The position numbers were made by a program, and so were the translations under genes. A DNA stretch of 64,000 nt from Ensifer adhaerens (GTDB lineage Bacteria > Pseudomonadota > Alphaproteobacteria > Rhizobiales > Rhizobiaceae). The notes under the pieces were generated by a model. That model saw only the letters and a list, made by a program, of their open reading frames with translations, was not told the DNA's origin and did no database searches. Positions 17,121 through 37,437 of the stretch are shown here, one piece after another. Where the stretch lies: the NCBI RefSeq assembly GCF_020035535.1, contig NZ_CP083350.1:2800501-2864500 (forward strand). The letters run 5' to 3'. Each line of letters begins with the position of its first letter. The stretch's first letter is position 1.

Positions 17121-17154
17121 ATTGCGTGATTTGCGATGGTGGGGCTGCACCCTG

Positions 17155-17202
17155 ATGCATTGCGATACAAATCCGCTCCTGTCGGAAACATCCGCGATAC
17201 GT
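17155..17202 (+). promoter_or_regulatory. Paired GATAC-type direct-repeat sites upstream of dipZ-msrA
   Basis: GATACA at 17164 and GATACG at 17196 are 32 bp apart. Each has a related half-site 10-11 bp upstream (ATGCAT before the first; AAACATC before ATACGTC in the second). The second site aligns column by column with elements near 19872, 21732 and 25943. The arrangement fits tandem binding of an OmpR-type response regulator; the protein involved is inferred. Confidence 0.5.
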
Positions 17203-17273
17203 CGCGATGGTCCTCTGCCGCACGTGACAAGCGATCTGTGCCTCGGGCATCGATCCCATGCGGAGAGACGGTG

Positions 17274-19043
17274 ATGATCCTCTTTGTTGTAGCCTATCTT
17301 GCCGGCGCGCTGACGATCGTCAGCCCGTGCATCCTGCCGGTGCTGCCATTCGTGTTTGCCCGCGCCGGCCAGCCTTTTTCCACCAGCATTCTCCCGATGC
17401 TGCTCGCCAAGATCGTGACCTTCGCGGGTATCGCCTCGCTTGCAGCCCTCGGCGGCAACTGGGCGGTGCAGGCGAACGCCTATGGCCGCTACGCAGCGAT
17501 CGCGATGCTCGCCGCTTTCGGTGTAACGCTGCTCTCGACGCGGGCTGCCGCCTTGGTGACCGGTCCGTTCGTGGAACTCGGCAACCGACTGTCGAGGAAG
17601 GCCGCCACCGGGAGGAAGGGCAGCGTCGGCGGTTCGATCCTGCTTGGTGTTGCAACCGGATTGCTCTGGGCGCCGTGTGCCGGGCCGGTGCTCGGTCTGG
17701 TGCTGACCGGGGCGGCGCTGAACGGCGCGAATGTGCAGACGACGCTGTTACTTGTCGCCTATGCGGCCGGTGCTGCGACCTCGCTGGCGCTCGCTGTTTT
17801 GGCAGGCGCCAGAGTATTCGCGGCGATGAAGCGCTTCCTCGGCATCGGCGACCGCATCCGCCAAGGTCTCGGCGTTGCAGTGCTTGCCGGCGTTGGCTCG
17901 ATCGCGCTGGGCCTCGACACCGGACTTTTGGCGCAGCTTTCCTATGCGAGCACGTCGGGCGTTGAACAGTCGATCCTCGATCGCCTGCGCAGCGCTGCAT
18001 CGCCCGTGGACGTCGCAAGCACCCGTATGACCCTTGCCGCAAAGGATACGCGACAGGCGGCCTATCGCAGCGACCTTCCGGTCGAAGGACAGTTTCCGTC
18101 GCTTGACGGTGCAGTTCAGTGGCTGAATTCGAAGCCGCTGACGCCTGCCGAGCTTCGCGGCAAGGTCGTCCTCGTCGATTTCTGGACCTATTCCTGCATC
18201 AACTGCATCCGCACCATCCCCTATGTCAGGGCCTGGGCCGAGAAGTACCGGGATCAGGGCCTCGTCGTCATCGGCGTGCACGCTCCGGAATTCGCCTTCG
18301 AGAAGCAGATCGGCAACGTCGAGAAGGCGGTGCGCGATTTCAAGATCAACTATCCGGTGGCGATCGACAACGATTTCATCATCTGGCGCGCCTTCTCCAA
18401 CAACTACTGGCCGGCCCACTACTTCATCGATGCGGAGGGACAGGTCCGTTACACCCATTTCGGCGAGGGCGACTATGAAGGTTCCGAGCGCGTGATCCAG
18501 GAACTGTTGGCGGAGGCGGCGGGAAAGCGGAAGACCGAAAACGGGCTCGTCGCGCCAAAGGCCGCGGGCGCGGAAGCCGCGCCTGACCTCGCACGGCTCG
18601 GCTCCGGCGAGACCTATATCGGCTATGCGCGGGCCGAACACTTCGTCTCGCCGGAAGGCGTTTCGGCCGACGCCGCCCAGCGCTACACCGTTGGCGAGCC
18701 CCGCCTCAACGAATGGGGCCTCACCGGCAACTGGACTGTCGGCGCCGAAGAGGCGCGCCTCAATGCGGCAGGTGGGGGCATCACCTACCGGTTCCGGGCC
18801 CGCGACCTGCACCTGGTGCTCGGGCCTGGCGCTGGCGGCAAGCCAATACCGTTTCAGGTGACTGTCGATGGGGTCGTGCCCGGCGCGGACCACGGCGCCG
18901 ATATCGACGCGAGCGGCAAAGGCGCCGTCACGGAGACCCGCCTTTACCAGCTTGTGCGTCAGTCAGGCGCTTCGCGGGAACGGACGTTCGAAATCCGCTT
19001 TCTGGAACCCGGTGCGGAAGCCTTCGTTTTCACCTTTGGATGA
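17274..19043 (+). CDS. DipZ-like fusion: CcdA membrane domain + TlpA thioredoxin domain + C-terminal beta domain
   Basis: A 589-residue protein that carries reducing power across the membrane. Residues 1-235 are a CcdA/DsbD-type domain with about six helices and the two reactive cysteine motifs (IVSPCILPVLPF near residue 19; LWAPCAGP later). Residues about 270-430 are a periplasmic thioredoxin-like domain with active site C308-I-N-C311 (FWTYSCINCIR). Residues about 445-589 form a beta-sandwich seen in DipZ proteins. The ATG at 17274 follows CGGAGAGACG. msrA follows after nine bases, which suggests that the protein reduces periplasmic MsrA or damaged proteins. Confidence 0.9.
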   Translation: MILFVVAYLAGALTIVSPCILPVLPFVFARAGQPFSTSILPMLLAKIVTFAGIASLAALGGNWAVQANAYGRYAAIAMLAAFGVTLLSTRAAALVTGPFVELGNRLSRKAATGRKGSVGGSILLGVATGLLWAPCAGPVLGLVLTGAALNGANVQTTLLLVAYAAGAATSLALAVLAGARVFAAMKRFLGIGDRIRQGLGVAVLAGVGSIALGLDTGLLAQLSYASTSGVEQSILDRLRSAASPVDVASTRMTLAAKDTRQAAYRSDLPVEGQFPSLDGAVQWLNSKPLTPAELRGKVVLVDFWTYSCINCIRTIPYVRAWAEKYRDQGLVVIGVHAPEFAFEKQIGNVEKAVRDFKINYPVAIDNDFIIWRAFSNNYWPAHYFIDAEGQVRYTHFGEGDYEGSERVIQELLAEAAGKRKTENGLVAPKAAGAEAAPDLARLGSGETYIGYARAEHFVSPEGVSADAAQRYTVGEPRLNEWGLTGNWTVGAEEARLNAAGGGITYRFRARDLHLVLGPGAGGKPIPFQVTVDGVVPGADHGADIDASGKGAVTETRLYQLVRQSGASRERTFEIRFLEPGAEAFVFTFG

Positions 19044-19052
19044 GAGTTTGAC

Positions 19053-19790
19053 ATGAGCGACAAACAAAAGCAGCACGGGCGCGGCTGGCCCGTCTTCACC
19101 CAACGTCTTCTCGTCGCCGCGACCATGGTCGGTGGTGGATTGACCTTCGCGCTCAATGGGCAGTCGGCGGCACAGGAGGCAAAGCCTGTGCCGAAAGCAC
19201 TTCACGATATCTGGCCGGCCGAAGGACGCCAGACGGCGGTGTTGGCCGGCGGTTGCTTCTGGGGCGTGCAGGCGGTGTTCCAGCATGTGGCCGGCGTCAA
19301 GGGTGTCACGTCAGGATACGCGGGCGGCAGCGCGGGTACGGCGACCTACGAGCAGACGGAGACCGGCACCACCGGGCATGCCGAAGCGGTGGAAATAACG
19401 TTCGACCCGAAGCAGGTGAGCTACGGCAAGTTGCTCGAGATCTACTTCTCCGTTGCCCATGATCCGACGCAGCTTGGCGGGCAGGGACCCGACAGCGGAC
19501 CGCAATATCGGTCAGCGATTTTTCCGCGCAATGACGAGCAGGCGAAGGTTGCCGCCGACTATATCGCGCAACTGAACGCGGCAACCGTCTTCGCCCGGTC
19601 GATTGCGACGACGATCGAGCCCGGCAAGGCTTTCTATCGGGCCGAGGCATATCACCAGGATTACGTCTACAACAATCCCGGCCAGCCCTATGTTGTCATC
19701 TACGAGAAACCGAAGATCGGCGCGCTGCACCGCCTGTTCCCGGGCCTCTATCTCGAGAAGCCCGTGCTTGTAGCGGACAGCGCTGCCTAG
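19053..19790 (+). CDS. msrA: Peptide-methionine (S)-S-oxide reductase, exported or membrane-anchored
   Basis: A 245-residue MsrA that repairs oxidised methionine. The catalytic motif GGCFWG places the nucleophile at C68, followed by GYAGGSAGTATYEQ and the HAEAVEITFDP and YHQDYVYNNP motifs. Residues about 17-42 (RLLVAATMVGGGLTFALNG) form a signal peptide or membrane anchor absent from cytoplasmic MsrA, so it probably works in the periplasm with the DipZ-like protein encoded nine bases upstream. No msrB was found next to it. Confidence 0.94.
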   Translation: MSDKQKQHGRGWPVFTQRLLVAATMVGGGLTFALNGQSAAQEAKPVPKALHDIWPAEGRQTAVLAGGCFWGVQAVFQHVAGVKGVTSGYAGGSAGTATYEQTETGTTGHAEAVEITFDPKQVSYGKLLEIYFSVAHDPTQLGGQGPDSGPQYRSAIFPRNDEQAKVAADYIAQLNAATVFARSIATTIEPGKAFYRAEAYHQDYVYNNPGQPYVVIYEKPKIGALHRLFPGLYLEKPVLVADSAA

Positions 19791-19839
19791 CGGATGAGAC
19801 GCCGTGGGGCCTCCCGGCGGGCCAAGCCAGTTCAGCCTT

Positions 19840-19889
19840 TTACACAAGGATACAGTTTCGCGGCCGGCTGCACACACCCGCGATACACC
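19840..19889 (+). promoter_or_regulatory. Paired GATACA direct-repeat sites upstream of 19973
   Basis: TTACACAAGGATACAG (19840-19855) has half-sites at a 10-bp pitch. CACACACCCGCGATACACC (19871-19889) has ACACACC and ATACACC at an 11-bp pitch. The two GATACA cores are 33 bp apart, close to the 32-bp spacing at 17164/17196 and 21709/21741. Confidence 0.55.
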
Positions 19890-19972
19890 CAAGAGACACT
19901 CTAGCCGCGAGCACGTTTCGAGCCTTTGGCGGCGAAACGCCGCTGCTGACATCAATAACGGAAGGAGCCATC

Positions 19973-20167
19973 ATGCGTATCTTCGCGACAGTTTTCGCCA
20001 TCGCCGCGCTCGCGGCGGCACCATGCGCCTGGGATAGCGACCCGAGAGAACCCTCGCCTCTTGCCGTACTCGTCTCGGGTTCCGGATCCGCGACGGTTGC
20101 TGAGCAGGGAGCAGGATTGCTGCAGGAGGCGCCGCATGAGGAGCTTGCCGAGCCGTTCTTCAACTGA
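19973..20167 (+). CDS. Small secreted protein, unknown
   Basis: A 64-residue reading frame with a strong ribosome site (GGAAGGAGCC, then ATG) and a plausible signal peptide (MRIFATVFAIAALAAAPCA). The mature part is short, acidic and without recognisable domain (ends EELAEPFFN). It lies between the paired regulatory sites and the formamidase-family gene, 63 bp before that start, so it is probably the first gene of that transcript. It could also be the broken remnant of a longer exported protein. I do not recognise it. Confidence 0.45.
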   Translation: MRIFATVFAIAALAAAPCAWDSDPREPSPLAVLVSGSGSATVAEQGAGLLQEAPHEELAEPFFN

Positions 20168-20230
20168 TGATAGTACCGCCGAGACGGGTGGCCTGAACCT
20201 TTGATGCCAATCAACCTGGAGGAAAGTGAG

Positions 20231-21556
20231 ATGCTGGAGAAAACGAAAGAGCGGCAGACGACCGGGGCTCGGACTGTATTTGTCAACGAGTTGACCAATG
20301 GGATCCTCGACCCGGCCGAGTCGATGCTGGGGCCCGTCGCCGATGGCGGTGTCATCATCGCGAACACAGCGCCGGGATGTTGGGGCCCGATGATCACGCC
20401 GGAGATCCGCGGCGGACATGAGGTGACGCGCCCTGTGGCGGTCGCGGGCGCGGAGGTCGGCGATGCGATCGCCATCCGGATCCGCTCGCTCATCGTCACC
20501 TCCGCGGCGACGGCTTCGGGAAACGACGAGGTGGTGGCAGGACGCTTCAACGGCGATCCGTTCTGCGCGGCTGTTTGCCCGGGTTGCGGCACGGAATGGC
20601 CGCGTACGCGTGTGGAAGGCATCGGCCAGACTGCGATCCGCTGCGAGACATGCGGCGCGGACGCGACGCCCTTCGTCTTCACAAACGGCTATACGATCGC
20701 CTTCGACGATGAGCGCCAGGTGGGCCTGACCGTCGGCAAAGCGATGGCGGAGACCTTCGCCACGGACGCGGAACGGCTGTTGGCGCTGCCGGACGGCTCG
20801 ATCCAGCACCCCATCCTGACCTTTGCACCGGCCGACCTCGTCGGTGTTGCCACAAGGCTCAGACCATTCCTTGGCCAATTGGGCACGACGCCGTCGAAGG
20901 CGATGCCGGACTCGCACAATGCCGGCGATTTCGGCCAGTTTCTGACCGACGCACCACATGCCTATTCCCTGACCGCGGATGAACTCGTTCGGCATAAGAC
21001 TGACGGCCACATGGACGTGAACACCGTGCGGGAAGGCGCGATCCTGATCTGCCCGGTCAAGGTACCGGGGGGCGGCATCTATATGGGCGACATGCATGCC
21101 CTGCAGGGAGACGGCGAAATTGCCGGTCATACCTGCGACGTCGCCGGCACGGTGACCCTGGAGGTCCATGTCATCAAGGGGCTCAAGATCGACGGGCCGA
21201 TCCTCCTGCCGGTGCTGGATGATGTACCGTTCCTTGCGCGTCCGCTTAACGCGGCGGAACGCACGCGGGTGGCGGCACTTGCCCGCAAGCACGGTGTCCG
21301 AGAGGTCGAAACCGACGCCCCGGTCACCTTCATAGGCACGGGCGCGAACCTCAATGATGCGACCACGAACGGGCTGGAACGGGCGGCAGGCCTGCTCGGC
21401 CTTAGCGTTCCCGAAGTGATGAACCGGGTGACGATCGCAGGTGCCATCGAGATCGGTCGCCACCCGGGTGTGGCGCGGGTGACGTTCCGCGCTCCGCTCA
21501 GCCTGCTCGACGCAAAGGGCATCGGCTCCTTTGCGCGCAGTCTCTACAACCTCTGA
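20231..21556 (+). CDS. Acetamidase/formamidase family protein
   Basis: A 441-residue protein of the FmdA/AmdA family, zinc-dependent amidases that release ammonia from formamide or acetamide. Typical features are GVIIANTAPGCWGPM-like text near residue 50, a zinc-ribbon-like insert (CPGCGTEW with CETCGA) at about 115-145, DSHNAGDFGQF and YMGDMHALQGDGEIAGHT, the conserved family core. The four-cysteine insert is unusual compared with the classical enzymes. The ATG at 20231 follows GGAGGAAAGTGAG. A strong terminator follows, so the transcription unit ends here. Confidence 0.85.
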   Translation: MLEKTKERQTTGARTVFVNELTNGILDPAESMLGPVADGGVIIANTAPGCWGPMITPEIRGGHEVTRPVAVAGAEVGDAIAIRIRSLIVTSAATASGNDEVVAGRFNGDPFCAAVCPGCGTEWPRTRVEGIGQTAIRCETCGADATPFVFTNGYTIAFDDERQVGLTVGKAMAETFATDAERLLALPDGSIQHPILTFAPADLVGVATRLRPFLGQLGTTPSKAMPDSHNAGDFGQFLTDAPHAYSLTADELVRHKTDGHMDVNTVREGAILICPVKVPGGGIYMGDMHALQGDGEIAGHTCDVAGTVTLEVHVIKGLKIDGPILLPVLDDVPFLARPLNAAERTRVAALARKHGVREVETDAPVTFIGTGANLNDATTNGLERAAGLLGLSVPEVMNRVTIAGAIEIGRHPGVARVTFRAPLSLLDAKGIGSFARSLYNL

Positions 21557-21591
21557 ACCGCCTGCGTCTTGCAGGGCGCCGATTGCGAATG

Positions 21592-21630
21592 AGAGCGGGG
21601 TCGACGTGATGTCGGCCCCGCTCTTTTTTT
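21592..21630 (+). terminator. Rho-independent terminator after formamidase-family gene
   Basis: A perfect nine-bp stem (AGAGCGGGG with CCCCGCTCT), 15-base loop and a run of T residues directly after the stem, 36 bp past the stop codon. Confidence 0.92.
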
Positions 21631-21708
21631 GCTGACGTCAAAGGTTAGCGGGAGAACTCCGGGGGCATTCGTATCGCTCTGCCGCAATGCCGGATCTCCA
21701 AACATTGA

Positions 21709-21748
21709 GATACACAGACGCTGCTCCCGAACACATCACGGATACACC
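21709..21748 (+). promoter_or_regulatory. Paired GATACA direct-repeat sites upstream of the SDR/epoxide hydrolase unit
   Basis: GATACA at 21709 (half-site CAAACA 10 bp upstream) and GAACACATCACGGATACACC at 21729-21748 (ACACATC and ATACACC at an 11-bp pitch) have cores 32 bp apart. They lie 160 bp upstream of the SDR start. The 351-bp gap between 21557 and 21907 holds only the terminator and these sites. Confidence 0.55.
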
Positions 21749-21907
21749 GCGCACGCATGGTCACGGCGAAATTGGATTGCATCGCGCAGATGCGATCCTG
21801 ACCTTCGGCAGCCGATGTTTATGTCCTGAAATGAAGGAATTACGACATTTGAGCCATTGACGTTTGGCCTTACCATCGAGGCTCCAACCAAGGCAAAGGA
21901 GCTTGAA

Positions 21908-22708
21908 ATGAGCAGGAATTCCAAGGGTACGGCACTGATCACCGGCGCGTCCTCCGGCATCGGTGCAATCTACGCCGATCGTCTGGCCCGCCGCGGCTTC
22001 GACCTGATCCTCGTTGCCCGCAACCGTGAGCGATTGAATAGTCTCGCCAGCCGTCTGGCGGACGAGACGGGGCGCGCCATCGAAGTCGTCGCGGCCGACC
22101 TCGGCAACAGGGATGATGTCAGGCGGGTCGAGATGATCCTCCAGAGCGATGCGAGCATCACGGTGCTGATCAACAATGCCGGGGTCGGTGCCACCGCGCC
22201 TCTGCTTGCCTCCGATGTCGACAAGATGGAAGAGATGATCACGCTCAACGTCAGCGCACTGACGCGGCTGACCTATGCGGCGGCACCTGGATTTGCCGCG
22301 CGCAGCACGGGTACGATCATCAACATCGCCTCCATCGTCGGCGTGGCGCCCGAGCTTCTGAACGGCGTCTACGGCGGGACCAAGGCCTTCGTGCTGGCCT
22401 TTACGCTGTCGCTGCAGAAGGAGTTTGCCGACAGCAACGTCCGCATTCAGGCTGTGCTTCCGGGTGCGACCGCCACGGATTTCTGGGGCATTGCCGGCAC
22501 GCCGCTCGAGCACGTTCCAAGCGAGATCGTCATGCGGGCCGAAGACATGGTGGACGCAGCGCTTGCCGGCTTCGACCAGGGCGAAGTGATCACCATTCCG
22601 GCGCTGCCGGATGCCGGTGACTGGGCGGCCTATGAGGCAGCCCGCCAGAAACTCATGCCCAACCTTTCCAGGAGCGCACCTGCTGCTCGCTACAACACCG
22701 GGGGATAG
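21908..22708 (+). CDS. Short-chain dehydrogenase/reductase (SDR)
   Basis: A 266-residue SDR. The Rossmann motif TGASSGIG is near residue 12, followed by NNAGVGATAPL, the serine region NIASIVGVAPE and the YGGTK catalytic Tyr/Lys. It belongs to the DltE/YqjQ-like group. The ATG at 21908 is preceded by AAAGGAG. It begins the SDR-epoxide hydrolase-VOC unit (gaps of 78 and 53 bp) and is placed under the paired GATACA sites. Confidence 0.88.
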   Translation: MSRNSKGTALITGASSGIGAIYADRLARRGFDLILVARNRERLNSLASRLADETGRAIEVVAADLGNRDDVRRVEMILQSDASITVLINNAGVGATAPLLASDVDKMEEMITLNVSALTRLTYAAAPGFAARSTGTIINIASIVGVAPELLNGVYGGTKAFVLAFTLSLQKEFADSNVRIQAVLPGATATDFWGIAGTPLEHVPSEIVMRAEDMVDAALAGFDQGEVITIPALPDAGDWAAYEAARQKLMPNLSRSAPAARYNTGG

Positions 22709-22786
22709 CTCCCGATTTCCACCGGGCTCCCAACCCGGAACGTCTGGCGATGCCTGAGGCATCGCTTCCACAACCGAACCAGGAGA

Positions 22787-24130
22787 ATGATGATGTCCAG
22801 ACGCTATTTGCCAGATGCCAAGCGTAGCCGCTTGGCCGCCATCGCGCTGTCGGGAGCGGTCGCGATCCTGCTTCCCCCGCTTGCAGCCGGGGCCGCTTCC
22901 TCGGCGGGCGGCACCCAGATCGTGGCCGCAGCAAAGCCGGCGACCGACGAAGCCATCCGCCCCTTCCAGTTCCATGCCGGTGATGCCGCACTTGCCGACC
23001 TCAAGCAGCGCATCGCGGCGACCAAATGGCCGGACCGCGAACTGGTTAAGGACGGAACCCAGGGCGTTCAGCTCGCCACCATGCAGAAACTCGCCGAGTA
23101 TTGGGCGACGAACTACGATTGGCGCCGGGTGGAAAAGCAACTCAACGACCTGCCGCAGTTCGTGACCAATATCGACGGCGTCGACATCCATTTCATTCAT
23201 GTGCGGTCCAAGCACAAGAACGCGATGCCGCTCATCGTCACCCACGGCTGGCCGGGCTCGATCATCGAGCAGTTGAAGATCATCGATCCCCTGACCAATC
23301 CGACTGCCCACGGCGGCAGCGAAGCCGATGCCTTCGACATCGTCATTCCTTCGCTGCCCGGCTACGGCTTCTCCGGCAAACCCAACGAACTCGGATGGGA
23401 CCCGGTCCGCATCGCCAAGGCCTGGGCCGTGCTGATGCAGCGTCTGGGCTACACCCACTATGTTGCGCAGGGCGGTGACTGGGGTGATGCGGTCACGGAG
23501 CAGATGGCGTTGCAGCGGCCGGCCGGGTTGCTCGGCATCCACACCAACATGCCGGCGACGGTTCCCTCCGAGATCCAGGAGAGCCTGGATGCCGGCGCTC
23601 CGGCCCCCTCGAATCTTTCGACCGACGAGCGCCGTGCCTATGACCAGCTCGACTTCTTCTACAGGAACGGGTTGTCCTATGCCCAGGAGATGAGCAAGCG
23701 CCCGCAGACGCTCTATGGCATCGAGGACTCGCCGATCGGGCTTGCCAGCTGGATACTCGATCATGACGCCCGCAGCTACGAGCTGATCGCCCGTGTCTTC
23801 GATGGTCAATTGGAAGGGCTGAGCCGTGACGACGTGCTCGACAACATCACGCTCTACTGGCTGACCAACACGGCCGTCTCCTCGGCGCGGCTCTACTGGG
23901 AAAACAAGCTCGCCTTCTTCCAGCCGAAGGGCATTCAGATTCCGGTGGCCGTCAGCGCCTTCCCGGACGAACTCTATCAGGCGCCGAAGTCTTGGGCGGA
24001 AAAGGCGTTCCCCAAGCTCATACACTATAATCGCCTCGCCAAGGGGGGGCACTTTGCAGCCTGGGAACAGCCTGCCGCCCTGGTCGATGAGCTGAGGGCC
24101 TCGTTCAAGTCACTGCGTCAACCGAGCTGA
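22787..24130 (+). CDS. Exported epoxide hydrolase (EHN + alpha/beta hydrolase)
   Basis: A 447-residue epoxide hydrolase. An N-terminal hydrophobic segment (RSRLAAIALSGAVAILLPPLAAGA) suggests export. Residues about 55-160 are the microsomal-type N-terminal lid (RPFQFHAGDAALADLKQRIAATKWPD in outline), then the HGWPGS oxyanion loop, the nucleophile Asp in QGGDWGD and the catalytic His in KGGHFAAWEQP. These open epoxides to diols by an ester intermediate. A ribosome site AGGAG precedes a run of ATG codons; the first is taken. Confidence 0.9.
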   Translation: MMMSRRYLPDAKRSRLAAIALSGAVAILLPPLAAGAASSAGGTQIVAAAKPATDEAIRPFQFHAGDAALADLKQRIAATKWPDRELVKDGTQGVQLATMQKLAEYWATNYDWRRVEKQLNDLPQFVTNIDGVDIHFIHVRSKHKNAMPLIVTHGWPGSIIEQLKIIDPLTNPTAHGGSEADAFDIVIPSLPGYGFSGKPNELGWDPVRIAKAWAVLMQRLGYTHYVAQGGDWGDAVTEQMALQRPAGLLGIHTNMPATVPSEIQESLDAGAPAPSNLSTDERRAYDQLDFFYRNGLSYAQEMSKRPQTLYGIEDSPIGLASWILDHDARSYELIARVFDGQLEGLSRDDVLDNITLYWLTNTAVSSARLYWENKLAFFQPKGIQIPVAVSAFPDELYQAPKSWAEKAFPKLIHYNRLAKGGHFAAWEQPAALVDELRASFKSLRQPS

Positions 24131-24183
24131 AGGGAAGAGGCGCGCGAAGGCGCGCCCTCCCGTTCCAACCAAGGAGAAGTGCC

Positions 24184-24822
24184 ATGACAAATTCAGAAAG
24201 TGCCAACAGAACCCCATCGGTTGATCTGAAGTTCGAGGTCGCCGTCATTCCCGTCTCGGATGTCGATCGGGCCAAGAGTTTTTACAGTGGCCTTGGCTGG
24301 CGGCTCGATGCCGATTTTCCGGTCGGTGATACGTTCCGGGTCGTCCAGTTTACCCCACCGGGCTCGCCGGCGTCGATCCACTTTGGCGATGGGCTGACCT
24401 CGGCTGCGCCCGGCTCCGCCAGTGGCCTCTATCTCGTCGTTTCGGACATCGAAGCCGCGCGCGCCGAGCTTATCGAGCGTGGCGCGGAAGTCAGCCAGAT
24501 CTTTCACCGGGAAGGTCCCGGAAAGCCGCCGATCAGCGGCCGTGACCCCGCGCGCCGCAGCTACCGCTCCTATGCCACCTTCAGCGACCCCGACGGCAAC
24601 GGCTGGCTTCTGCAGGAAGTGACCGAGCGTTTGCCCGGCCGTGTGGATGCCGATGTCACGGACTTCGCTTCGGTGGGAGACCTTGCGGCGGCCTTGCGTC
24701 GCGCCGCAACTGCCCATGGCGAGCACGAGAAGCGGACGGGTGGCCAGCACGATCACAACTGGCCGGACTGGTATGCGACGTACATGGTCGCAGAGCACGC
24801 GGGCAAACCGCTTCCCGAATGA
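24184..24822 (+). CDS. VOC/glyoxalase-fold protein
   Basis: A 212-residue protein whose first 140 residues are a vicinal-oxygen-chelate domain (FEVAVIPVSDVDRAKSFYSGLGW, seen in part as VIPVSDVDRAKSFYSGLGW, then DPDGNGWLLQEVTERLPGR). The last 60 residues are an extension with a His-rich end (GGQHDHNWPDWYATYMVAEHAG). AAGGAGAAG precedes the ATG. Such proteins include glyoxalases, dioxygenases and resistance proteins, so the substrate cannot be assigned. It is the third gene of the SDR-epoxide hydrolase unit. Confidence 0.85.
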   Translation: MTNSESANRTPSVDLKFEVAVIPVSDVDRAKSFYSGLGWRLDADFPVGDTFRVVQFTPPGSPASIHFGDGLTSAAPGSASGLYLVVSDIEAARAELIERGAEVSQIFHREGPGKPPISGRDPARRSYRSYATFSDPDGNGWLLQEVTERLPGRVDADVTDFASVGDLAAALRRAATAHGEHEKRTGGQHDHNWPDWYATYMVAEHAGKPLPE

Positions 24823-24901
24823 GATGCGGCTATGATCGTCGCGTTCCCTTCATGGCGGAAATCTGCTATAAGCGATCATTCCAGACAGGGATGGCTTTGA
24901 C

Positions 24902-25843
24902 ATGCACAGGATCGGCTACGTCGTCTTTCCAAGATTCCAGCTCATGGGGTTCGCGGCGGTCACCGCTTTCGAGATCGCCAATCTGACGCTCGGAGAGCAG
25001 GCCTACGGGATCGAGTTGCTGTCAGAGGCGGGCGGCGAGATCAAATCGTCCGCCGGTTTCGGTGTGCTCACAAAAGCCGTCGACGATACGGTCTATGACA
25101 CCGTCATGTTCGGCGCGGGCACTCAGATCGAACCGGTTACTCCGGGGCTGGTTGCCTTTGCGCGCCATGCACTCAAAGCCTCGCGGCGGGTGGCGGCACC
25201 CTGTACCGGTGCCTTCATCCTTGCAGAATCCGGACTGCTCGACGGCCGTCGCGCCACGACCCATTGGGTGTTTGCGCGTCAGCTCCGAGAGCGTTTCCCG
25301 GAGATTAGAGTCGAGGAAGATCGCATCTTCATCGTCGACGGCAGCGTGTGGACCTCGGCCGGCATGACGGCCAGCATCGATCTGGCGCTTGCGATGATCG
25401 AAAAGGATCATGGCGAGGACGTCGCGCGCCAGGTCGCGCGCAAGCTCGTCGTCTATCACCGGCGCGCCGGCGGGCAGTCGCAATTTTCCGCCCTGCTTGA
25501 ACTGGATCCAAAGTCGGATCGCATTCAGAAATCGGTCAACTACGCCAAGGCCAATTTGCGCAATGCGTTGTCGGTGGAGGAGCTCGCCGATGCCGCCGGC
25601 TTGAGTTCGCGCCAGTTCAGTCGCGCCTTCCGCTCCGAGACCGGCCAGTCGCCGGCAAAGGCCGTCGAACATCTGCGCGTAGAGGCGGCGCGCCTGTTGA
25701 TGGAACAGGGGCGACATTCCATGGACGTGATCGCCGAGGAAACAGGTTTTGCTGACAGCGATCGCATGCGCCGCGCCTTCCTGCGCACGCTTGGCCAACC
25801 GCCTCAGACGATCCGCCGCAATGCGCGTGAAGGCATCGCCTGA
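24902..25843 (+). CDS. GlxA-family regulator (DJ-1/PfpI + AraC)
   Basis: A 313-residue regulator. Residues 1-170 form a DJ-1/PfpI-like domain (IGYVVFPRFQLMGFAAVTAFEIA in outline, with the nucleophile-elbow position VAAPCTGAFILAESG). Residues 210-310 form the AraC double HTH (LSVEELADAAGLSSRQFSRAF, then MDVIAEETGFADSDRMRRAF). It lies 79 bp after the VOC gene on the same strand and has its own short upstream gap. It may regulate the surrounding detoxification genes. Confidence 0.9.
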   Translation: MHRIGYVVFPRFQLMGFAAVTAFEIANLTLGEQAYGIELLSEAGGEIKSSAGFGVLTKAVDDTVYDTVMFGAGTQIEPVTPGLVAFARHALKASRRVAAPCTGAFILAESGLLDGRRATTHWVFARQLRERFPEIRVEEDRIFIVDGSVWTSAGMTASIDLALAMIEKDHGEDVARQVARKLVVYHRRAGGQSQFSALLELDPKSDRIQKSVNYAKANLRNALSVEELADAAGLSSRQFSRAFRSETGQSPAKAVEHLRVEAARLLMEQGRHSMDVIAEETGFADSDRMRRAFLRTLGQPPQTIRRNAREGIA

Positions 25844-25881
25844 ACCGGACGCCACTGCGGTTTGCCGTGCCTTGGTAGAAT

Positions 25882-25960
25882 TGTATCGCCGTGTATCCGC
25901 GGCCTGCCGTTCTACACTTGCTTTCAATCGGGGCCGCAGGGAACACGCCCGGGATACACT
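25882..25960. promoter_or_regulatory. Tandem TGTATC repeat plus GATACA element upstream of 26004
   Basis: TGTATC occurs at 25882 and 25892, an exact 10-bp pitch (GATACA on the minus strand). GAACACGCCCGGGATACACT at 25941-25960 aligns with the elements at 19870 and 21729. The downstream site ends 43 bp before the hydrolase start. Confidence 0.55.
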
Positions 25961-26003
25961 GGCGCTCCATTTCTGATGCAGTTCAGTTCACCGGAGGCAC
26001 CCC

Positions 26004-27056
26004 ATGTCGGACGAAATCAACCATCCACGGCGTCGTTTCATCGGCGCAATTGCGCTTTCGCTGGCGGCGACGCAATTCGCTTTGACACGCGTTGCCAGAG
26101 CGCAATCGGGAGACAGCGCCACGCCACGCCTGCCGGCCATCACCCCCGGGACGAACAAGTCCTTCCCCACCCTCAAGCAGGTCGATGCGGGTGTCCTGAA
26201 CGTCGGCTATGCCGAACTTGGCGCGAGTGACGCTCCGGTCGTCATTCTGCTGCACGGTTGGCCCTATGACATCCATACCTATGTGGATGTGGCGCCGCTC
26301 TTGGCAAATGCCGGCTACCGCGTCATCGTTCCCTATCTGCGCGGCTACGGCACCACCCGGTTCCTCTCCGCCGATACACTGCGAAACGGCCAACAGGCGG
26401 TGATTGCCACGGACATCATTGCGTTGATGGACGCACTCAAGATCGACAAGGCGGTCATTGGCGGCTGCGATTGGGGTGCTCGCACAGCCAATATCATTGC
26501 CGCTCTCTGGCCCGAACGCTGCAAGGCGCTCGTCTCCGTCAGTGGTTATCTCATCGGCAGCCAGGAGGTGAACAGGAAGCCGCTTTCGCCGCAGGCAGAG
26601 CTTGCCTGGTGGTACCAGTTCTACTTCGCCACCGAGCGGGGGTATGCCGGTTACAAGCAGAACCACAAGGAGTTCGCCAGGCTGATCTGGAAGCTTGCCT
26701 CGCCCAAGTGGAACTTCGACGATGCCACCTTCGACAGCAGCGCCGAAGCGCTTGAGAACCCCGACCACGTCGACATCTCGATCCACAATTACCGCTGGCG
26801 CCTCAGCCTCGCCGAGGGTGAAGCACAGTACGACGACCTCGAAAAGCAACTGGCGCAGTTCCCGACCATCACTGTCCCGACCATCACGCTCGAGGGCGAC
26901 GCCAATGGTGCGCCGCATCCGGAGCCGGCGGCCTATGCCAAGCGCTTCTCCGGCAAGTACGAGCATCGGCTGATCACCGGCGGCATCGGCCACAATCTGC
27001 CACAGGAGGCACCGGTGGCCTTCGCCAGGGCGATCGTCGACGTCGATCGTTTCTAG
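26004..27056 (+). CDS. Tat-exported alpha/beta hydrolase (epoxide hydrolase/haloalkane dehalogenase type)
   Basis: A 350-residue hydrolase with a twin-arginine signal (PRRRFIGAIALSLAATQFAL, cleavage near VARAQSG). The fold marks are LLHGWPYD, YLRGYGTTRF, nucleophile Asp in GGCDWGART and catalytic His in GGIGHNLPQEAP. An Asp rather than Ser nucleophile fits epoxide hydrolases and haloalkane dehalogenases. Ribosome site CCGGAGG. It is a single-gene unit ending at a strong terminator and starting behind GATACA sites. Confidence 0.88.
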   Translation: MSDEINHPRRRFIGAIALSLAATQFALTRVARAQSGDSATPRLPAITPGTNKSFPTLKQVDAGVLNVGYAELGASDAPVVILLHGWPYDIHTYVDVAPLLANAGYRVIVPYLRGYGTTRFLSADTLRNGQQAVIATDIIALMDALKIDKAVIGGCDWGARTANIIAALWPERCKALVSVSGYLIGSQEVNRKPLSPQAELAWWYQFYFATERGYAGYKQNHKEFARLIWKLASPKWNFDDATFDSSAEALENPDHVDISIHNYRWRLSLAEGEAQYDDLEKQLAQFPTITVPTITLEGDANGAPHPEPAAYAKRFSGKYEHRLITGGIGHNLPQEAPVAFARAIVDVDRF

Positions 27057-27081
27057 TTCTTCTCCCGCAGCTTGCGTGGAG

Positions 27082-27118
27082 GCGCGGGGTTCCGGTTCGC
27101 CGGTCCCGCGCTTTTTTT
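27082..27118 (+). terminator. Rho-independent terminator after Tat-exported hydrolase
   Basis: Stem GCGCGGG paired with CCCGCGC, followed by seven T residues, 26 bp after the stop codon. Confidence 0.9.
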
Positions 27119-27217
27119 GCGTGCTGATGCGGCGTTTGGAGCCTGCCCGGCATAGTGTGTGGCACCCCGGCCAGGGACCAGCCGCAAGCGCGCAGGTCCA
27201 TGTTCCGTGGCCGCCTT

Positions 27218-27294
27218 CGTATCAGCATGTATCCATTCCGGGTCTTGGCAAACTGCCACACATTTCCGCTTCCCTGATGAAACATCCCATACAC
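27218..27294. promoter_or_regulatory. Tandem GTATC repeat plus CATACACC element upstream of ohr
   Basis: CGTATC at 27218 and TGTATC at 27228 repeat at an exact 10-bp pitch, as at 25882/25892. GAAACATCCCATACACC at 27279-27295 is a shortened version of the other elements. This 318-bp gap (27057-27374) otherwise holds the terminator at 27082 and no gene. Confidence 0.5.
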
Positions 27295-27374
27295 CTGCGG
27301 AGCGCCATCTGTGTCTCGACAGTCGCAAAGGGCAATCGGGCCCGAAAGGAACTCCTGTCGAAAGGAAGAACACG

Positions 27375-27791
27375 ATGATCGAAGCTGAAAAGGTACTCTA
27401 CACCGGCAAGACCCACACGACCGGCGGGCGCGACGGCGCCGCCCGGAGCGACGACGGACGCCTGGACGTCAGGCTCTCTACGCCCGGCAGTTCGCGGCCG
27501 GGCACAAACCCGGAGCAGCTCTTCGCTGCCGGCTGGTCGGCGTGCTTCATCGGCGCAATCGGGCTGGCGGCCGGCCAGCGCAAGGTTGCGCTCCCCTCGG
27601 ACCTTGCCGTCGACACGGAGGTGGACCTGCGCAATCGCAACGGCGGCTATTTCCTGCAGGCGCGGCTCAATGTCAGCCTGCCGGGGGTCGATGCGGATGT
27701 GGCGCGTCAACTGGTCGATGCTGCGCACCAGACCTGCCCCTATTCCAAGGCGACGCGCGGCAACATCGATGTGACGATCAATCTCGTCTGA
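27375..27791 (+). CDS. ohr: Organic hydroperoxide resistance protein (Ohr/OsmC family)
   Basis: A 138-residue thiol peroxidase that reduces organic hydroperoxides with lipoyl or dithiol donors. Both catalytic cysteines are present: the peroxidatic Cys in FAAGWSACFIGAI and the resolving Cys in HQTCPYSKAT. The N-terminal KVLYTGKTHTTGGRDG is typical of Ohr rather than OsmC. ATG at 27375 follows GAAAGGAAGAA. There is no ohrR/MarR gene beside it; control by the GATACA-binding regulator is inferred. Confidence 0.94.
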   Translation: MIEAEKVLYTGKTHTTGGRDGAARSDDGRLDVRLSTPGSSRPGTNPEQLFAAGWSACFIGAIGLAAGQRKVALPSDLAVDTEVDLRNRNGGYFLQARLNVSLPGVDADVARQLVDAAHQTCPYSKATRGNIDVTINLV

Positions 27792-27835
27792 ACGTGCTCC
27801 GACTGCGGAATACCCTATAGCATCACCCAACGGTG

Positions 27836-27864
27836 GCGGCGGCCGATGAGGCCGCCGCTTTTTT
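27836..27864 (+). terminator. Rho-independent terminator after ohr
   Basis: Stem GCGGCGGCC with GGCCGCCGC, five-base loop and six T residues. It lies between ohr and the convergent histidine kinase gene. Confidence 0.92.
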
Positions 27865-27934
27865 GATTGGAGGACTGGCTGCGTTTGGCGTGGGGTGGGT
27901 ACGGGAGTGTGAAGCCACCGCCCCCTGTTATGCC

Positions 27935-29269
27935 TCATGCCCGGTGAGGACGAATGGTAAGCTCCGCAGCCAAACCGCCGCCGGTACGATTCTTCAGGGT
28001 CAGAGAGGCGTTGATGGAGGCGGCAAGCTGTTGGGCTATGGCAAGGCCGAGGCCTGTTCCGCCAGTATCGCGGTTGCGGGAGTCCTCCAGCCGGACGAAG
28101 GGTTTGAGGACTGCATCCAGCTGATCTTCGGGAATGCCGGGTCCGTGGTCGAGCACCTTGATCGTCACGCTGTCGTCAGCAAGCCGCCTGACCTCGATCT
28201 CGGCGCTGCCGCCGAACTTGAGCGCGTTGTCGACCAGGTTGGTCAGGATGCGTCTGAGCGCCTGGGGGCGGGTGATGATCGCGCCGCCATCGACGTCGTT
28301 GGCGGTCACCGCCTTGCCGGTGTCCTGATAGTCATAGACGAGGCTCTCGATGAAGGAGGAAAGATCGATGCGTGTCGCCTTTTCGACATTGCCATGGGCG
28401 CTGCGAGCATAGGCAACACCCTCCTTCACCAGGCTCTCGATCTGCCCGAGATCCTGGATCAACTTCTCGCGGTCGGCAAAGTCGTCCGCCATTTCGGCGC
28501 GCAGCTTCATGCGGGTAATCGGAGTCTGCAGATCGTGGGAAATGGCGGCGAGGATCTGAACGCGCTCTTCGAGATACTGGGCGATGCGGTCACGCATCGC
28601 GTTGAACGCGCTCGCCGCATAGGCGACCTCGGTCGGCCCGGTTTCGCTGAGCCGCGGCGTATTGCGATTGGGGTCAAGCGTATCGGCCGCCGCTGCGAGG
28701 TTGACGAGTGGGCGGACCGCCTGGCGCATCGCAAACCAACTGCATAAAATCAAGAGCGCGAGTTGGGCAAGCAACACGAAAGGCAGCCAGTCAGCTAGCG
28801 GCATCACCCCCTTGGGATAGACGTCGATCGTCAGTGGCGACCCGTCGCTCAAGGTCAGATGCGCTTGCACGTGGCGGCGATCGCCGGGAACCGTCTCGAC
28901 TTTGACCGGATATTGCGGGCCGGTCGCACGCTGGATGTTGGCGGAGAGCTCTATGGTTGCCGGATCGAGTGACGGGTTGCCAGGAACGCCTGGGCCGAGA
29001 ATGAAACCGTAATTGTCTCGGCTCAGGCGGTTGAGCCACGCGCCGCGCTCGGTCGCGGGTAGGCGATCGAGTATCGCGATCGACGTCGCGATGTCGTTTT
29101 CCAGCGTGTTGAACATGACGGACTTCGCCGCGACGTAGCGCTCGAAAAACAGAACCGTGAACGACATGACATGCGCGATGGTGAGACCGGCCAGCAGGAT
29201 AACGAAGAGCCGCGCCCTAAGTGTGCGCGGCCATAGCCGGATGCCTTTTGGCTCTGCGCTAGTCGTCAT
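27935..29269 (-). CDS. Sensor histidine kinase (EnvZ-like)
   Basis: A 444-residue membrane kinase. Two transmembrane segments (about 20-40 and 165-185) enclose a periplasmic domain of about 120 residues, followed by a HAMP domain (RQAVRPLVNLAAAADTL), the H-box with phospho-accepting His (LAAISHDLQTPITRMKL), an N-box (LTNLVDNALKFGG) and G-boxes (DHGPGIPE; GTGLGLAIAQQ). The start overlaps the response-regulator stop by four bases (ATGA). The neighbourhood suggests that it senses an envelope or oxidative signal; the ligand is unknown. Confidence 0.94.
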   Translation of the reverse strand: MTTSAEPKGIRLWPRTLRARLFVILLAGLTIAHVMSFTVLFFERYVAAKSVMFNTLENDIATSIAILDRLPATERGAWLNRLSRDNYGFILGPGVPGNPSLDPATIELSANIQRATGPQYPVKVETVPGDRRHVQAHLTLSDGSPLTIDVYPKGVMPLADWLPFVLLAQLALLILCSWFAMRQAVRPLVNLAAAADTLDPNRNTPRLSETGPTEVAYAASAFNAMRDRIAQYLEERVQILAAISHDLQTPITRMKLRAEMADDFADREKLIQDLGQIESLVKEGVAYARSAHGNVEKATRIDLSSFIESLVYDYQDTGKAVTANDVDGGAIITRPQALRRILTNLVDNALKFGGSAEIEVRRLADDSVTIKVLDHGPGIPEDQLDAVLKPFVRLEDSRNRDTGGTGLGLAIAQQLAASINASLTLKNRTGGGLAAELTIRPHRA

Positions 29270-30006
29270 TCACGCGCCTCCACGATCTCGATGGGCACCG
29301 AGAAGACGTAACCTTCGCTGCGCACCGTCTTGATGTAGATCGGTTCGCGAGCGTCATCGCCGAGCCGCTGGCGGACCCGGCTGACGAGCAGATCGATCGA
29401 CCGATCGAAGAGTTCGGCCTCGCGCCCTTGGGTGAGGTTGAGCAATTGGTCGCGGTTGAGCACGCGCTGGGGGTGGTCGATGAATACCTTCAGCAGCCGA
29501 TACTCGGCGCCGCTGAGCGCGATTACGGTGCCGTCCGCGTCGATCAGGTGCCGGGCGGTGGTGTCGAGCTTCCACTGACCAAAGCGCAGTAGCTGTCCGG
29601 CCTCCGAAATCTGCAGGTTCGGCGGCAGCATGCGCGCGCGCCGGAGCACCGCCTTGATGCGGGCGAGCAGTTCGCGCGCGGAGAACGGCTTGGAGAGATA
29701 GTCGTCGGCACCCATCTCGAGGCCCAGGATCCGGTCCATCTCGTCGCTGCGGGCCGTCAGCATGATGATCGGGATCGCCTTGTGTTTGCCAGCGCGCAGT
29801 TCACGGCTGAGCACGAGCCCGTCGTCGCCTGGCATCATCACATCGAGCACGATGAGATCGACGGTATCGCCCTCGAGGAAGCTGCGCATCTGTCGCCCGT
29901 CGGCAACGGCCGTTGCGCGCAACCCGTTCTTCTTGAGGTAACCCGACACGAGTTCGCGGATCTCGCGGTCGTCATCGACAATCAACACGTGGTCGATATG
30001 CTCCAT
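29266..30006 (-). CDS. OmpR-family response regulator
   Basis: A 246-residue two-domain regulator. The receiver has the acidic pocket D11-D12, the phospho-acceptor D55 in LIVLDVMMPG and the conserved Lys in YLSKPFS. The C-terminal winged helix ends VRQRLGDDAREPIYIKTVRSEGY (outline). Ribosome site GAGGAGTT. It is upstream of and coupled to the kinase gene. A GATACA-type site lies about 160 bp before its start, so autoregulation is plausible, and it is the best local candidate for the protein that binds the repeated elements at 17.1-30.2 kb. Confidence 0.95.
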   Translation of the reverse strand: MEHIDHVLIVDDDREIRELVSGYLKKNGLRATAVADGRQMRSFLEGDTVDLIVLDVMMPGDDGLVLSRELRAGKHKAIPIIMLTARSDEMDRILGLEMGADDYLSKPFSARELLARIKAVLRRARMLPPNLQISEAGQLLRFGQWKLDTTARHLIDADGTVIALSGAEYRLLKVFIDHPQRVLNRDQLLNLTQGREAELFDRSIDLLVSRVRQRLGDDAREPIYIKTVRSEGYVFSVPIEIVEARE

Positions 30007-30133
30007 CGAGCAAACTCCTCAAATCCGGTTTGGTCTTGGCTTCCCTGGCGGCTTTACCCGGCCAAGGTCGAAGGCATCCGAGCAGCCCCATTGGCGCCTG
30101 GGATATGTCCTCGGTGTGTTCGCAACATCCAGA

Positions 30134-30181
30134 CTTGCATGAGAATGTAATGCAAGCACCTCCAGATACATTTCGACACAA
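30134..30181. promoter_or_regulatory. Inverted repeat and ATACATT/ACACAAA repeat upstream of the response-regulator gene
   Basis: CTTGCAT (30134-30140) and ATGCAAG (30150-30156) are perfect inverse arms nine bases apart. Next to them GATACATTTCGACACAAA (30165-30182) contains two related heptamers at a 10-bp pitch, the same pattern as the other GATACA sites. This is the promoter side of the two-component operon. Confidence 0.45.
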
Positions 30182-30192
30182 ATTTGCAAACG

Positions 30193-35416: not shown

Positions 35417-35417
35417 C

Positions 35418-36443: not shown

Positions 36444-37202
36444 CTATTTGCCGGCGTCCTTGGCTGCGGTCTCGATGATCTCGGCGACCGTTTGCGCTTG
36501 CGAGGCGAAAACGGCGTGGCTTGCCTTGACTTCACTCACCTGGCTGCCGGCGCGCTTCGCCATGCTTCGTTCAAGCTCCGGATTGATGGCGCGATCTTCA
36601 GTCGCCACGATCGCCCAGCTTTTCTTTGTCCGCCATGCCGGATCGCCGGCCTTGGCAGTGAAAACCTCCTTTGCGGCAAAGACTTGCGACCGCGCCGCAA
36701 AGGCCGCCTCCGCCTTTGGAAGGTCGGCGGCGAAATCCGCAGCGAAGGCTGACGGATCGAGATAGAGATATTTGCCGTCGGCGGTTTCCTTGATGCTCAT
36801 CGCCGCTGACGGCTTCGAACTGGCAAGCGTTGCCAAGTCCTCGCCCTTTTCAGGCTGAAACGCCGCAACATAGACCAACGCTTCGACCTTCTGGTGATGG
36901 CCGGCTTCGCTGATCACCATGCCGCCGTAGCTGTGCCCGACGAGCAAGGTCGGGCCGTCCTGCAGGTCCAAGACACGGTTCGTCGCCTCGATGTCGGCGG
37001 CCAGCGACGTCAACGGTTCCTGCACGACGGTCACGTTGAAGCCGCGTCGCGCAAGGATGTCGCTGGCCTGGCGCCAGCCCGAACCGTCGGCGAAGGCGCC
37101 GTGCACGATGACAATGTTCTTGATATCTGTCGCCTGAGCAGCGAAGGCGACCACGCTCGTTGCAAACGCAAGAGCAACGGTGGAGAGAATACGGCGGCGC
37201 AT
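36444..37202 (-). CDS. Secreted alpha/beta hydrolase (esterase type)
   Basis: A 252-residue hydrolase with a signal peptide (RRRILSTVALAFATSVVAFAAQATD). The oxyanion motif IVIVHGAFADGSGW, the nucleophile in LLVGHSYGGMV and the C-terminal His in KASHAVFASQ match the family annotated as alpha/beta hydrolase or salicyl-esterase-like. ATG at 37202 follows AGAAGGAAC. It is a single gene. GTATC-type sequences at 37255-37269 lie upstream, a weak match to the GATACA elements. Confidence 0.9.
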   Translation of the reverse strand: MRRRILSTVALAFATSVVAFAAQATDIKNIVIVHGAFADGSGWRQASDILARRGFNVTVVQEPLTSLAADIEATNRVLDLQDGPTLLVGHSYGGMVISEAGHHQKVEALVYVAAFQPEKGEDLATLASSKPSAAMSIKETADGKYLYLDPSAFAADFAADLPKAEAAFAARSQVFAAKEVFTAKAGDPAWRTKKSWAIVATEDRAINPELERSMAKRAGSQVSEVKASHAVFASQAQTVAEIIETAAKDAGK

Positions 37203-37437
37203 GCGATCGTTCCTTCTGTGTTCATGAAGTGACGATCTCAATTTCATTCGAAGAGGTATCCCGGGTATGTCGGGCTTCACCAGGATATGTACCGCAATGT
37301 AGGGCAGGGCGATCTGCCGCTTGGTAATCCAGCCTGCTGCGTTGGCTCTGGCTCAGACCATGGCCAAGTGACCGCGGAAGCCGTCCATCCCGCGGCAAAC
37401 TCGCTCAAGCGCTATGCTGAATGCAGACGAATGTGCC

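Follow-up and report, generated by a model that had tools for sequence, protein, structure and literature searches.

In a stretch of 64,000 nucleotides of the Ensifer adhaerens genome (hereafter the window; positions 2800501-2864500 of contig C2 in G000, an 8.1 Mb genome in three contigs), we found a recurrent DNA element that very probably constitutes the operator of an OmpR-family response regulator (RR), encoded at 29266-30006 and activated by the histidine kinase encoded at 27935-29269. The pair would thus be the activator of an undescribed regulon directed against oxidants and electrophiles in the cell envelope. The element precedes genes with apparent roles in repairing or removing oxidised and reactive molecules, many of their products being apparently exported, is conserved in relatives and co-occurs with the two-component system. 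Since the site tracks the kinase-regulator pair, the pair probably controls a response to cell-envelope damage.

The half-sites reported in an initial annotation of the window were all recovered in their places. Pairs of GATACA/GATAC cores are located at 17164/17196, 19849/19882 and 21709/21741, spaced by 32, 33 and 32 bp, respectively, in keeping with the 32-33 bp claimed for these three promoters. Minus-strand pairs are located at 25882-25897 and 27218-27233, and more cores at 25953, 27288 and 30165. Counting both strands, 10 of the 15 GATACA occurrences in the window are inside these promoters. The repetition of the element thereby held up, but the N2 form proposed for it did not: ACAYC-N3-GATAC has three exact matches in the window, every one within these promoters, vs. 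a single one for the N2 form. Short patterns discriminated poorly. With up to two mismatches, ACAYCN3GATAC gave 67 matches vs. 53.3 expected (s.d. 7.7), a number reached by 3 of 100 shuffles. A 37-base two-core pattern had only two exact matches in the genome, both within the window, and with up to one mismatch it occurred in 29 places vs. 33 for the reversed control. ACAYN4GATAC occurred in 61 genome places vs. 11 for the reversed control. As the short patterns were too weak, the sequences of relatives and a full model were needed.

For motif discovery, the 220 bp upstream of four genes were collected, namely dipZ (67 regions passing filters), the alpha/beta hydrolase gene abh (69), the hydroperoxide reductase gene ohr (52) and the RR gene (80). 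Reduction by k-mer similarity left 44, 52, 38 and 56 of these, i.e. 190 regions. An expectation-maximization search without any prior motif returned GACACATccgGGATAC (score 1091) and aTTGTATCgnAaTGTA (score 1073), while the top motifs in three dinucleotide-shuffled control sets scored 124-131. The proximal site was found on the strand of the gene in 44/44 dipZ, 51/52 abh, 35/38 ohr and 12/56 RR regions, although these per-gene counts are circular in that the motif was refined on the same regions. Its position is narrowly defined: in 40 of 44 dipZ regions the start falls between -86 and -100 relative to the start codon, and in 48 of 51 abh regions between -61 and -67. A -10-like block, as taken from a logo, begins approximately 8 bp past its end.

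The proximal site, GACACATnCnGGATACnT, consists of two half-sites 11 bp apart, and the middle site, ACAnTnnGATACA, situated on the same strand, of two half-sites 10 bp apart. When aligned (n=86), the sites read CTACAnTnnGATACAnTTCCG-N8-GGACACATnCnGGATACnTC, which corresponds to two dimer sites in line, separated by about two turns of the helix. Such tandem direct repeats with a pitch of 10-11 bp are expected for targets of the OmpR/PhoB family. A third, inverted element, TTGTATCgcAaTGTATC, is present as well in 100 of the 140 promoters scanned; its start precedes the proximal site by 60-63 bp in 99 cases. It was most frequent at RR (10/10) and abh (47/51), followed by ohr (24/35) and dipZ (19/44), and its threshold was reached by none of 140 base-shuffled controls. 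Scanning the distal model in the opposite orientation gave 50 of 140 promoters, which we attribute to the resemblance of the middle site to the reverse of the distal element. Judging from the pattern of half-sites, the operator is an unusual composite among OmpR-family regulons, with two predicted in-line dimer sites to which an inverted pair is often added.

The 86 sites, aligned out of 125 eligible ones with the window and its closest clade (L009-L013) excluded, were made into a sequence-only model of 68 positions (R1). Seven cleanly separated matches (E 2.7e-11 to 1.1e-5) were found in the window. A model built from other species alone thereby recovered all six promoters of the initial annotation, together with an operator that was absent from it, in front of a second alpha/beta hydrolase gene. 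The element at 30165 does belong to the RR gene, as had been suggested, but it is the inverted distal element, whereas the in-line sites of that operator are located at 30092-30149 on the minus strand. The operators in the window are as follows.

17154..17174, plus strand: dipZ-msrA operator, middle in-line site GATGCATTGCGATACAAATCC (R1 match 17153-17217, 39.1 bits)
17185..17202, plus strand: dipZ-msrA operator, proximal site GAAACATCCGCGATACGT
19842..19888, plus strand: operator of the small open reading frame (ORF) and acetamidase/formamidase unit (proximal site 19871-19888; R1 19840-19893, 21.6 bits)
21702..21747, plus strand: operator of the short-chain dehydrogenase (SDR)-epoxide hydrolase-VOC unit (proximal site 21730-21747; R1 21702-21757, 26.5 bits)
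25881..25897, plus strand: abh operator, distal inverted element TTGTATCGCCGTGTATC (24.2 bits, offset -61)
25911..25964, plus strand: abh operator, in-line sites (proximal site 25942-25959; R1 21.3 bits)
27217..27233, plus strand: ohr operator, distal inverted element (22.1 bits, offset -62)
27252..27311, plus strand: ohr operator, in-line sites (proximal site 27279-27296; R1 22.6 bits)
30092..30149, minus strand: the RR gene's own operator, in-line sites (R1 25.5 bits; proximal part weak, 11.4 bits)
30165..30181, minus strand: the RR gene's own operator, distal inverted element (24.1 bits, offset -61)
37253..37303, minus strand: operator of the second alpha/beta hydrolase (R1 28.2 bits; proximal site 20.8 bits)

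Searching the whole 8.1 Mb genome with R1 at E <= 5 gave 14 matches, thirteen with E between 3.4e-9 and 0.013, followed by one at 2.28. The thirteen comprise the six promoters initially annotated, the site at 37253-37303 (minus strand) and six sites outside the window. Behind them are dipZ-msrA (two copies), the SDR-epoxide hydrolase-VOC unit, three other epoxide hydrolases, two alpha/beta hydrolases, ohr, a thioredoxin-like gene, a small secreted ORF (two copies) and RR. Five of the thirteen are gathered in a second cluster (C2:2027218-2036206), with a dipZ 96% and an msrA 94% identical to those of the window, two epoxide hydrolases, the second copy of the small ORF and the thioredoxin-like gene. 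Queries with the kinase, regulator, abh and ohr of the window found nothing in this cluster. The surrounding region (C2:2022001-2041000, L103) adjoins transposases of the IS110/IS66 type. Another site precedes a fourth epoxide hydrolase at C2:2180052.

The occurrence of R1 sites among genomes closely followed that of the kinase. Among 199 genomes of the order, matches at E <= 0.001 were found in exactly the six genomes harboring the kinase (E <= 1e-80), i.e. in 6/6 with and 0/193 without it, with three more genomes having one match each at E 0.006-0.009. Among 257 genomes of the family, 21 had R1 matches at E <= 0.001, including all 20 with the kinase (20/20 vs. 1/237). The corresponding Fisher P values, 1.3e-11 (order) and 6.9e-29 (family), are too small because the genomes are related and the cluster genes linked. 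Moreover, the two sets overlap (at least in G000, G023 and G187), and some of the genomes may be of species used in training the model. Weak sites can be lost in these searches, since filters were stricter and only the top candidates per genome were scored; 12 of the 13 sites in the E. adhaerens genome were regained at E <= 0.01.

The link to the neighboring OmpR-type system, proposed from the window only, was strengthened by this co-occurrence and by dipZ-like genes in genomes devoid of the kinase, which lack the site. DipZ-like proteins were found in 27 of the 257 family genomes, 19 with and 8 without kinase, and at E <= 0.5 their loci had an R1 site in 19 of 20 cases with kinase vs. none of 10 without. 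Five of the kinase-free loci (two in G423 and one each in G428, G321 and G224) show 58-67% identity over the matched part, a level shared with many loci of the kinase-bearing genomes. Sites also occur away from the kinase. In G268, dipZ has kept its site 1.86 Mb from the kinase along one contig (0.49 Mb if circular). Other sites are on contigs that do not carry the kinase. Downstream of these is an exported-type cupin in four genomes (G187, G298, G343 and G295, in the last behind a VOC-like frame, by eye), while G348 has an EamA transporter and G150 has abh in this position. The distance from the kinase is unproven for the G187 and G150 sites, each of which has a contig end less than 2 kb away.

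Conservation was further analyzed in the best 80 of 349 kinase relatives from named genomes (63-90% identical), which include Ensifer/Sinorhizobium, Rhizobium, Agrobacterium, Phyllobacterium, Bosea, Cupriavidus and others; the nearest among the matches listed are from Ensifer, at 87-90% identity, and a kinase/RR homologue is present on pSymB of S. meliloti 1021. In these loci (1.65 Mb), 231 R1 matches were found at E <= 0.01, a number that includes the training sites of the model, and downstream genes were labelled for the query set only. None of the 231 is inside a labelled coding region and 211 are just upstream of one, so that the outcome named as refuting in the initial annotation, i.e. 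as many matches in coding as in promoter DNA, did not occur. By downstream gene, the matches are distributed over dipZ (69), abh (62), ohr (51), RR (13), the second alpha/beta hydrolase abh2 (4), VOC (4), cupin (4), SDR (3), epoxide hydrolase (1) and 20 others, the latter including, by eye, GST-like, cytochrome P460-like and EamA-like genes and small secreted ORFs. At >=55% identity, RR was found at 80 loci, dipZ at 76, abh at 70, ohr at 54, LysR at 22, GlxA at 19 and msrA at 12. Gene orders vary, with kinase and RR both present at 80/80. GlxA (19/80) and LysR (22/80) were considered as binders of the site and rejected, as neither is a constant neighbor.

Regulator homologues 69-81% identical were found in Microvirga, Methylobacterium, Pantoea, Caballeronia and Variovorax plasmids. 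The operator accompanies them in Betaproteobacteria and, more weakly, in one Gammaproteobacterium, which again favors the neighboring system as the cognate one. R1 matches were found at the Microvirga, both Caballeronia and the Variovorax loci, as well as at the Cupriavidus loci (weak in L038, E 0.054), and the distal element is located beside the proximal site in two Caballeronia records and one Variovorax record (22.7-29.2 bits, offset 61-62 bp). A distal element of 27.7 bits was found in Pantoea agglomerans. On the Pantoea plasmids L147 and L148, which have the two-component system, the neighbors partly differ (DUF305 and YncE, or DUF6130 and alpha/beta hydrolases), and distal-type elements are found nearby.

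Several observations, in addition to the circular per-gene counts and the logo-derived -10 block mentioned above, speak against the proposed role of the pair. The upstream region of RR itself has the site in just 12 of 56 cases; 27 of the 44 misses follow a co-directional abh at a distance of at most 400 bp, and 17 do not. Among the 13 promoters in the E. adhaerens genome, those of abh, ohr and RR alone have a strong distal element, which the other 10 lack. Also, the system and many of its targets are inherited as one cluster, and the co-occurrence is partly linkage. One kinase-bearing genome has a partial dipZ (L122) without site, the sole miss among such loci, and five of the kinase-free dipZ-like loci are only 38-54% identical, four of them matching the C-terminal half only. 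Conversely, G242 has a dipZ-type operator (L142, C13:186-241) and no kinase or dipZ match; this site, 186 bases from the contig end, is perhaps a remnant after cluster loss, or reflects an assembly gap. Lastly, the R1 match at the Pantoea eucalypti locus is weak (E 0.0035), and no match up to E = 1 was found at the Methylobacterium or P. agglomerans locus.

The genes of the regulon and its surroundings in the window are listed below; export signals, here and in relatives, were assigned by eye.

17274..19043, plus strand: dipZ, membrane thiol-disulfide protein (Pfam: DsbD_TM, AhpC-TSA, Thioredoxin_10)
19053..19790, plus strand: msrA (PMSR/TIGR00401), with an N-terminal signal-like segment
19973..20167, plus strand: small, apparently secreted protein of 64 aa, carried by relatives behind the same operator
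20231..21556, plus strand: acetamidase/formamidase family protein (PF03069)
21908..22708, plus strand: SDR
22787..24130, plus strand: epoxide hydrolase (EHN, PF06441) with a signal-like N terminus
24184..24822, plus strand: VOC/glyoxalase-fold protein
24902..25843, plus strand: GlxA-type AraC regulator, a neighbor and, on present evidence, not the binder of the site (at 19/80 relatives' loci)
26004..27056, plus strand: abh, alpha/beta hydrolase with a Tat-like signal (RRRFIG motif by eye)
27375..27791, plus strand: ohr, Ohr-family organic hydroperoxide reductase (TIGR03561)
27935..29269, minus strand: sensor histidine kinase (HAMP, HisKA, HATPase_c)
29266..30006, minus strand: OmpR/PhoB-family RR, proposed binder of all operators
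36444..37202, minus strand: second alpha/beta hydrolase, an extra regulon member with a signal-like N terminus

The DsbD_TM match in dipZ (E 4e-4) is below the Pfam cut-off of that model. The small secreted protein begins with MRIFATVFAIAALAAAPCAWDS and is found behind the same operator in the window, in L103 (9749-9943) and also in L010, L013 and L036. Its 16 database homologues at E <= 0.01 are 60-76 aa long and hypothetical where named, and no Pfam domain is listed for any of the 16. Chromate transporter and ChrB-like genes are located near the regulon, at 34010-36239, without an R1 match of their own.

The initial label of an oxidative-damage regulon suits dipZ, msrA and ohr, but is too narrow for a set that also holds hydrolases, cupin, VOC and others. 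Because the regulon is wider than oxidative damage, it is better described as an envelope oxidant/electrophile response. A variant compatible with the proposed regulator and sites, which we regard as quite possible though not the favored one, is that the signal is specific, e.g. epoxides or other reactive organics from plants or soil, the oxidative genes being secondary. The four epoxide hydrolases (one within the SDR-led unit) and two alpha/beta hydrolases among the targets in the E. adhaerens genome would fit such a signal, as would the cupin, GST-like and cytochrome P460-like genes added by relatives (the latter two by eye). Against this, dipZ, abh and ohr are the commonest targets (69, 62 and 51 of 231), of which dipZ and ohr point to oxidative damage.

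Two further alternatives would separate the sites from the neighboring system. That another OmpR-family regulator, ChvI or CenR, binds the sites while the neighboring pair is incidental appears very improbable: both are widespread in the order, yet the sites are nearly confined to kinase-bearing genomes. In S. meliloti, ChvI did pull down a fragment, F18, inside SMb20213 (pSymB 221089-221185; excerpt of PMC3687685), which by its coordinates we infer to be the dipZ of this cluster (L143, pSymB 218982-233477). However, this fragment lies approximately 1 kb into the gene, at about the same distance from the operator, with no match to the operator model at that position, and the motifs given for ChvI and CenR in excerpts of PMC9731502 and PMC9561847 are unlike the operator. 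We give even less credence to the elements being promoters of an alternative sigma factor, since the fixed distance of the proximal element from a -10-like sequence and its narrow range from the start codon are outweighed by half-sites recurring at 10-11 bp, as OmpR-type proteins bind, by the presence of another in-line site and of a rigidly spaced inverted distal pair, neither of which is a promoter element, and by kinase and RR being the only ones present at 80/80 loci among the four regulators sought (kinase, RR, GlxA and LysR; sigma factors were not searched for).

With the adjoining pair as the preferred regulator, the binding, activation, polymerase contact and signal that we infer from sequence would be as follows. 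The kinase would sense a periplasmic change caused by an oxidant or electrophile and activate RR, whose phosphorylated dimers may then occupy the proximal site at the -35 place and probably recruit RNA polymerase in a PhoB-like manner. RR would also control its own gene. The regulon would supply repair and detoxifying enzymes, many with predicted export signals, i.e. DipZ, MsrA, the epoxide and alpha/beta hydrolases, the thioredoxin-like protein and, in relatives, the cupin, whereas Ohr, VOC and SDR are apparently cytoplasmic. A bolder extension, which we put forward tentatively and consider rather unlikely, is that of a portable and self-contained envelope-defence module, in which one system and its three-part operator, made up of two dimer sites in line plus an inverted one kept some 61 bp upstream, have moved between Alpha-, Beta- and Gammaproteobacteria, the operator assembles a higher-order regulator complex and the kinase senses a class of periplasmic electrophiles or oxidants outside those of known sensors. 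Such a complex would, to our knowledge, be unlike those known for OmpR-family proteins.

With these results, a two-component system that has a homologue on pSymB of the laboratory strain S. meliloti 1021 acquires a likely function and a set of targets open to testing. No study of this system came up in our literature searches, the nearest work being that on the ChvI-bound fragment inside SMb20213. Exported-type hydrolases that are as yet uncharacterised, along with a cupin and a small secreted protein, are thereby connected with thiol, methionine and peroxide repair, and the operator model finds candidate regulon members in genomes bearing the system.

As judged by their domains, RR and the adjoining kinase belong to the OmpR/PhoB-family two-component systems. 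RR has a receiver domain (PF00072, 104.8 bits), with the phospho-acceptor D55 invariant in 13 sequences, and a C-terminal winged helix (Trans_reg_C, PF00486, 72 bits), and its nearest solved sequences are ordinary OmpR-family proteins. Across 13 regulators of three classes, the winged-helix segment FDRSIDLLVSR, which we take by analogy to be the recognition helix, varies only by conservative substitutions. In the kinase, HAMP and HATPase_c pass their cut-offs while HisKA (25.6 bits) is just under its own of 26.9. The His box SHDLQTP is invariant in 34 kinases. An AlphaFold2 model of the kinase (mean pLDDT 73.6, pTM 0.38) places a mixed alpha/beta segment, devoid of conserved cysteines, between two long N-terminal helices.

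Among known systems, the best NCBIfam matches are OmpR (250.1 bits) for RR and EnvZ (177 bits) for the kinase, and the tandem half-sites at 10-11 bp pitch are shared with OmpR/EnvZ. Yet both proteins fall below the curated cut-offs (331 for OmpR, NF007005, and 415 for EnvZ), and the gene set and restricted distribution differ. The pho box consists of direct repeats of about 11 bp at the -35 place, where PhoB dimers recruit RNA polymerase, and the present operators likewise have direct repeats of about 11 bp at this place, near the -10. However, RR scores 204.6 bits vs. the curated 296.2 for PhoB (TIGR02154), its operators comprise two dimer sites, frequently joined by an inverted distal pair, and no phosphate genes were seen among its targets. 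HprRS/MsrPQ is a Gram-negative two-component envelope oxidant response with periplasmic methionine-sulfoxide repair. The likeness is in the two-component control and in such repair being among the targets, while among the genes sought here the targets comprise MsrA, DipZ, Ohr and hydrolases. Lastly, ChvG/ChvI and CenK/CenR are likewise OmpR-family envelope-stress systems of Alphaproteobacteria, and a CenKR target has a predicted thioredoxin fold (PMC9561847, excerpt). The motifs in the excerpts, i.e. N-GCC-N8-GCC (as cited for S. meliloti) and TTGC-N3-GCAA (Caulobacter) for ChvI (PMC9731502), and AgTCAC--C--cGTgAct from four promoters for CenR (PMC9561847), differ, when compared by eye, from the operator consensus presented here.

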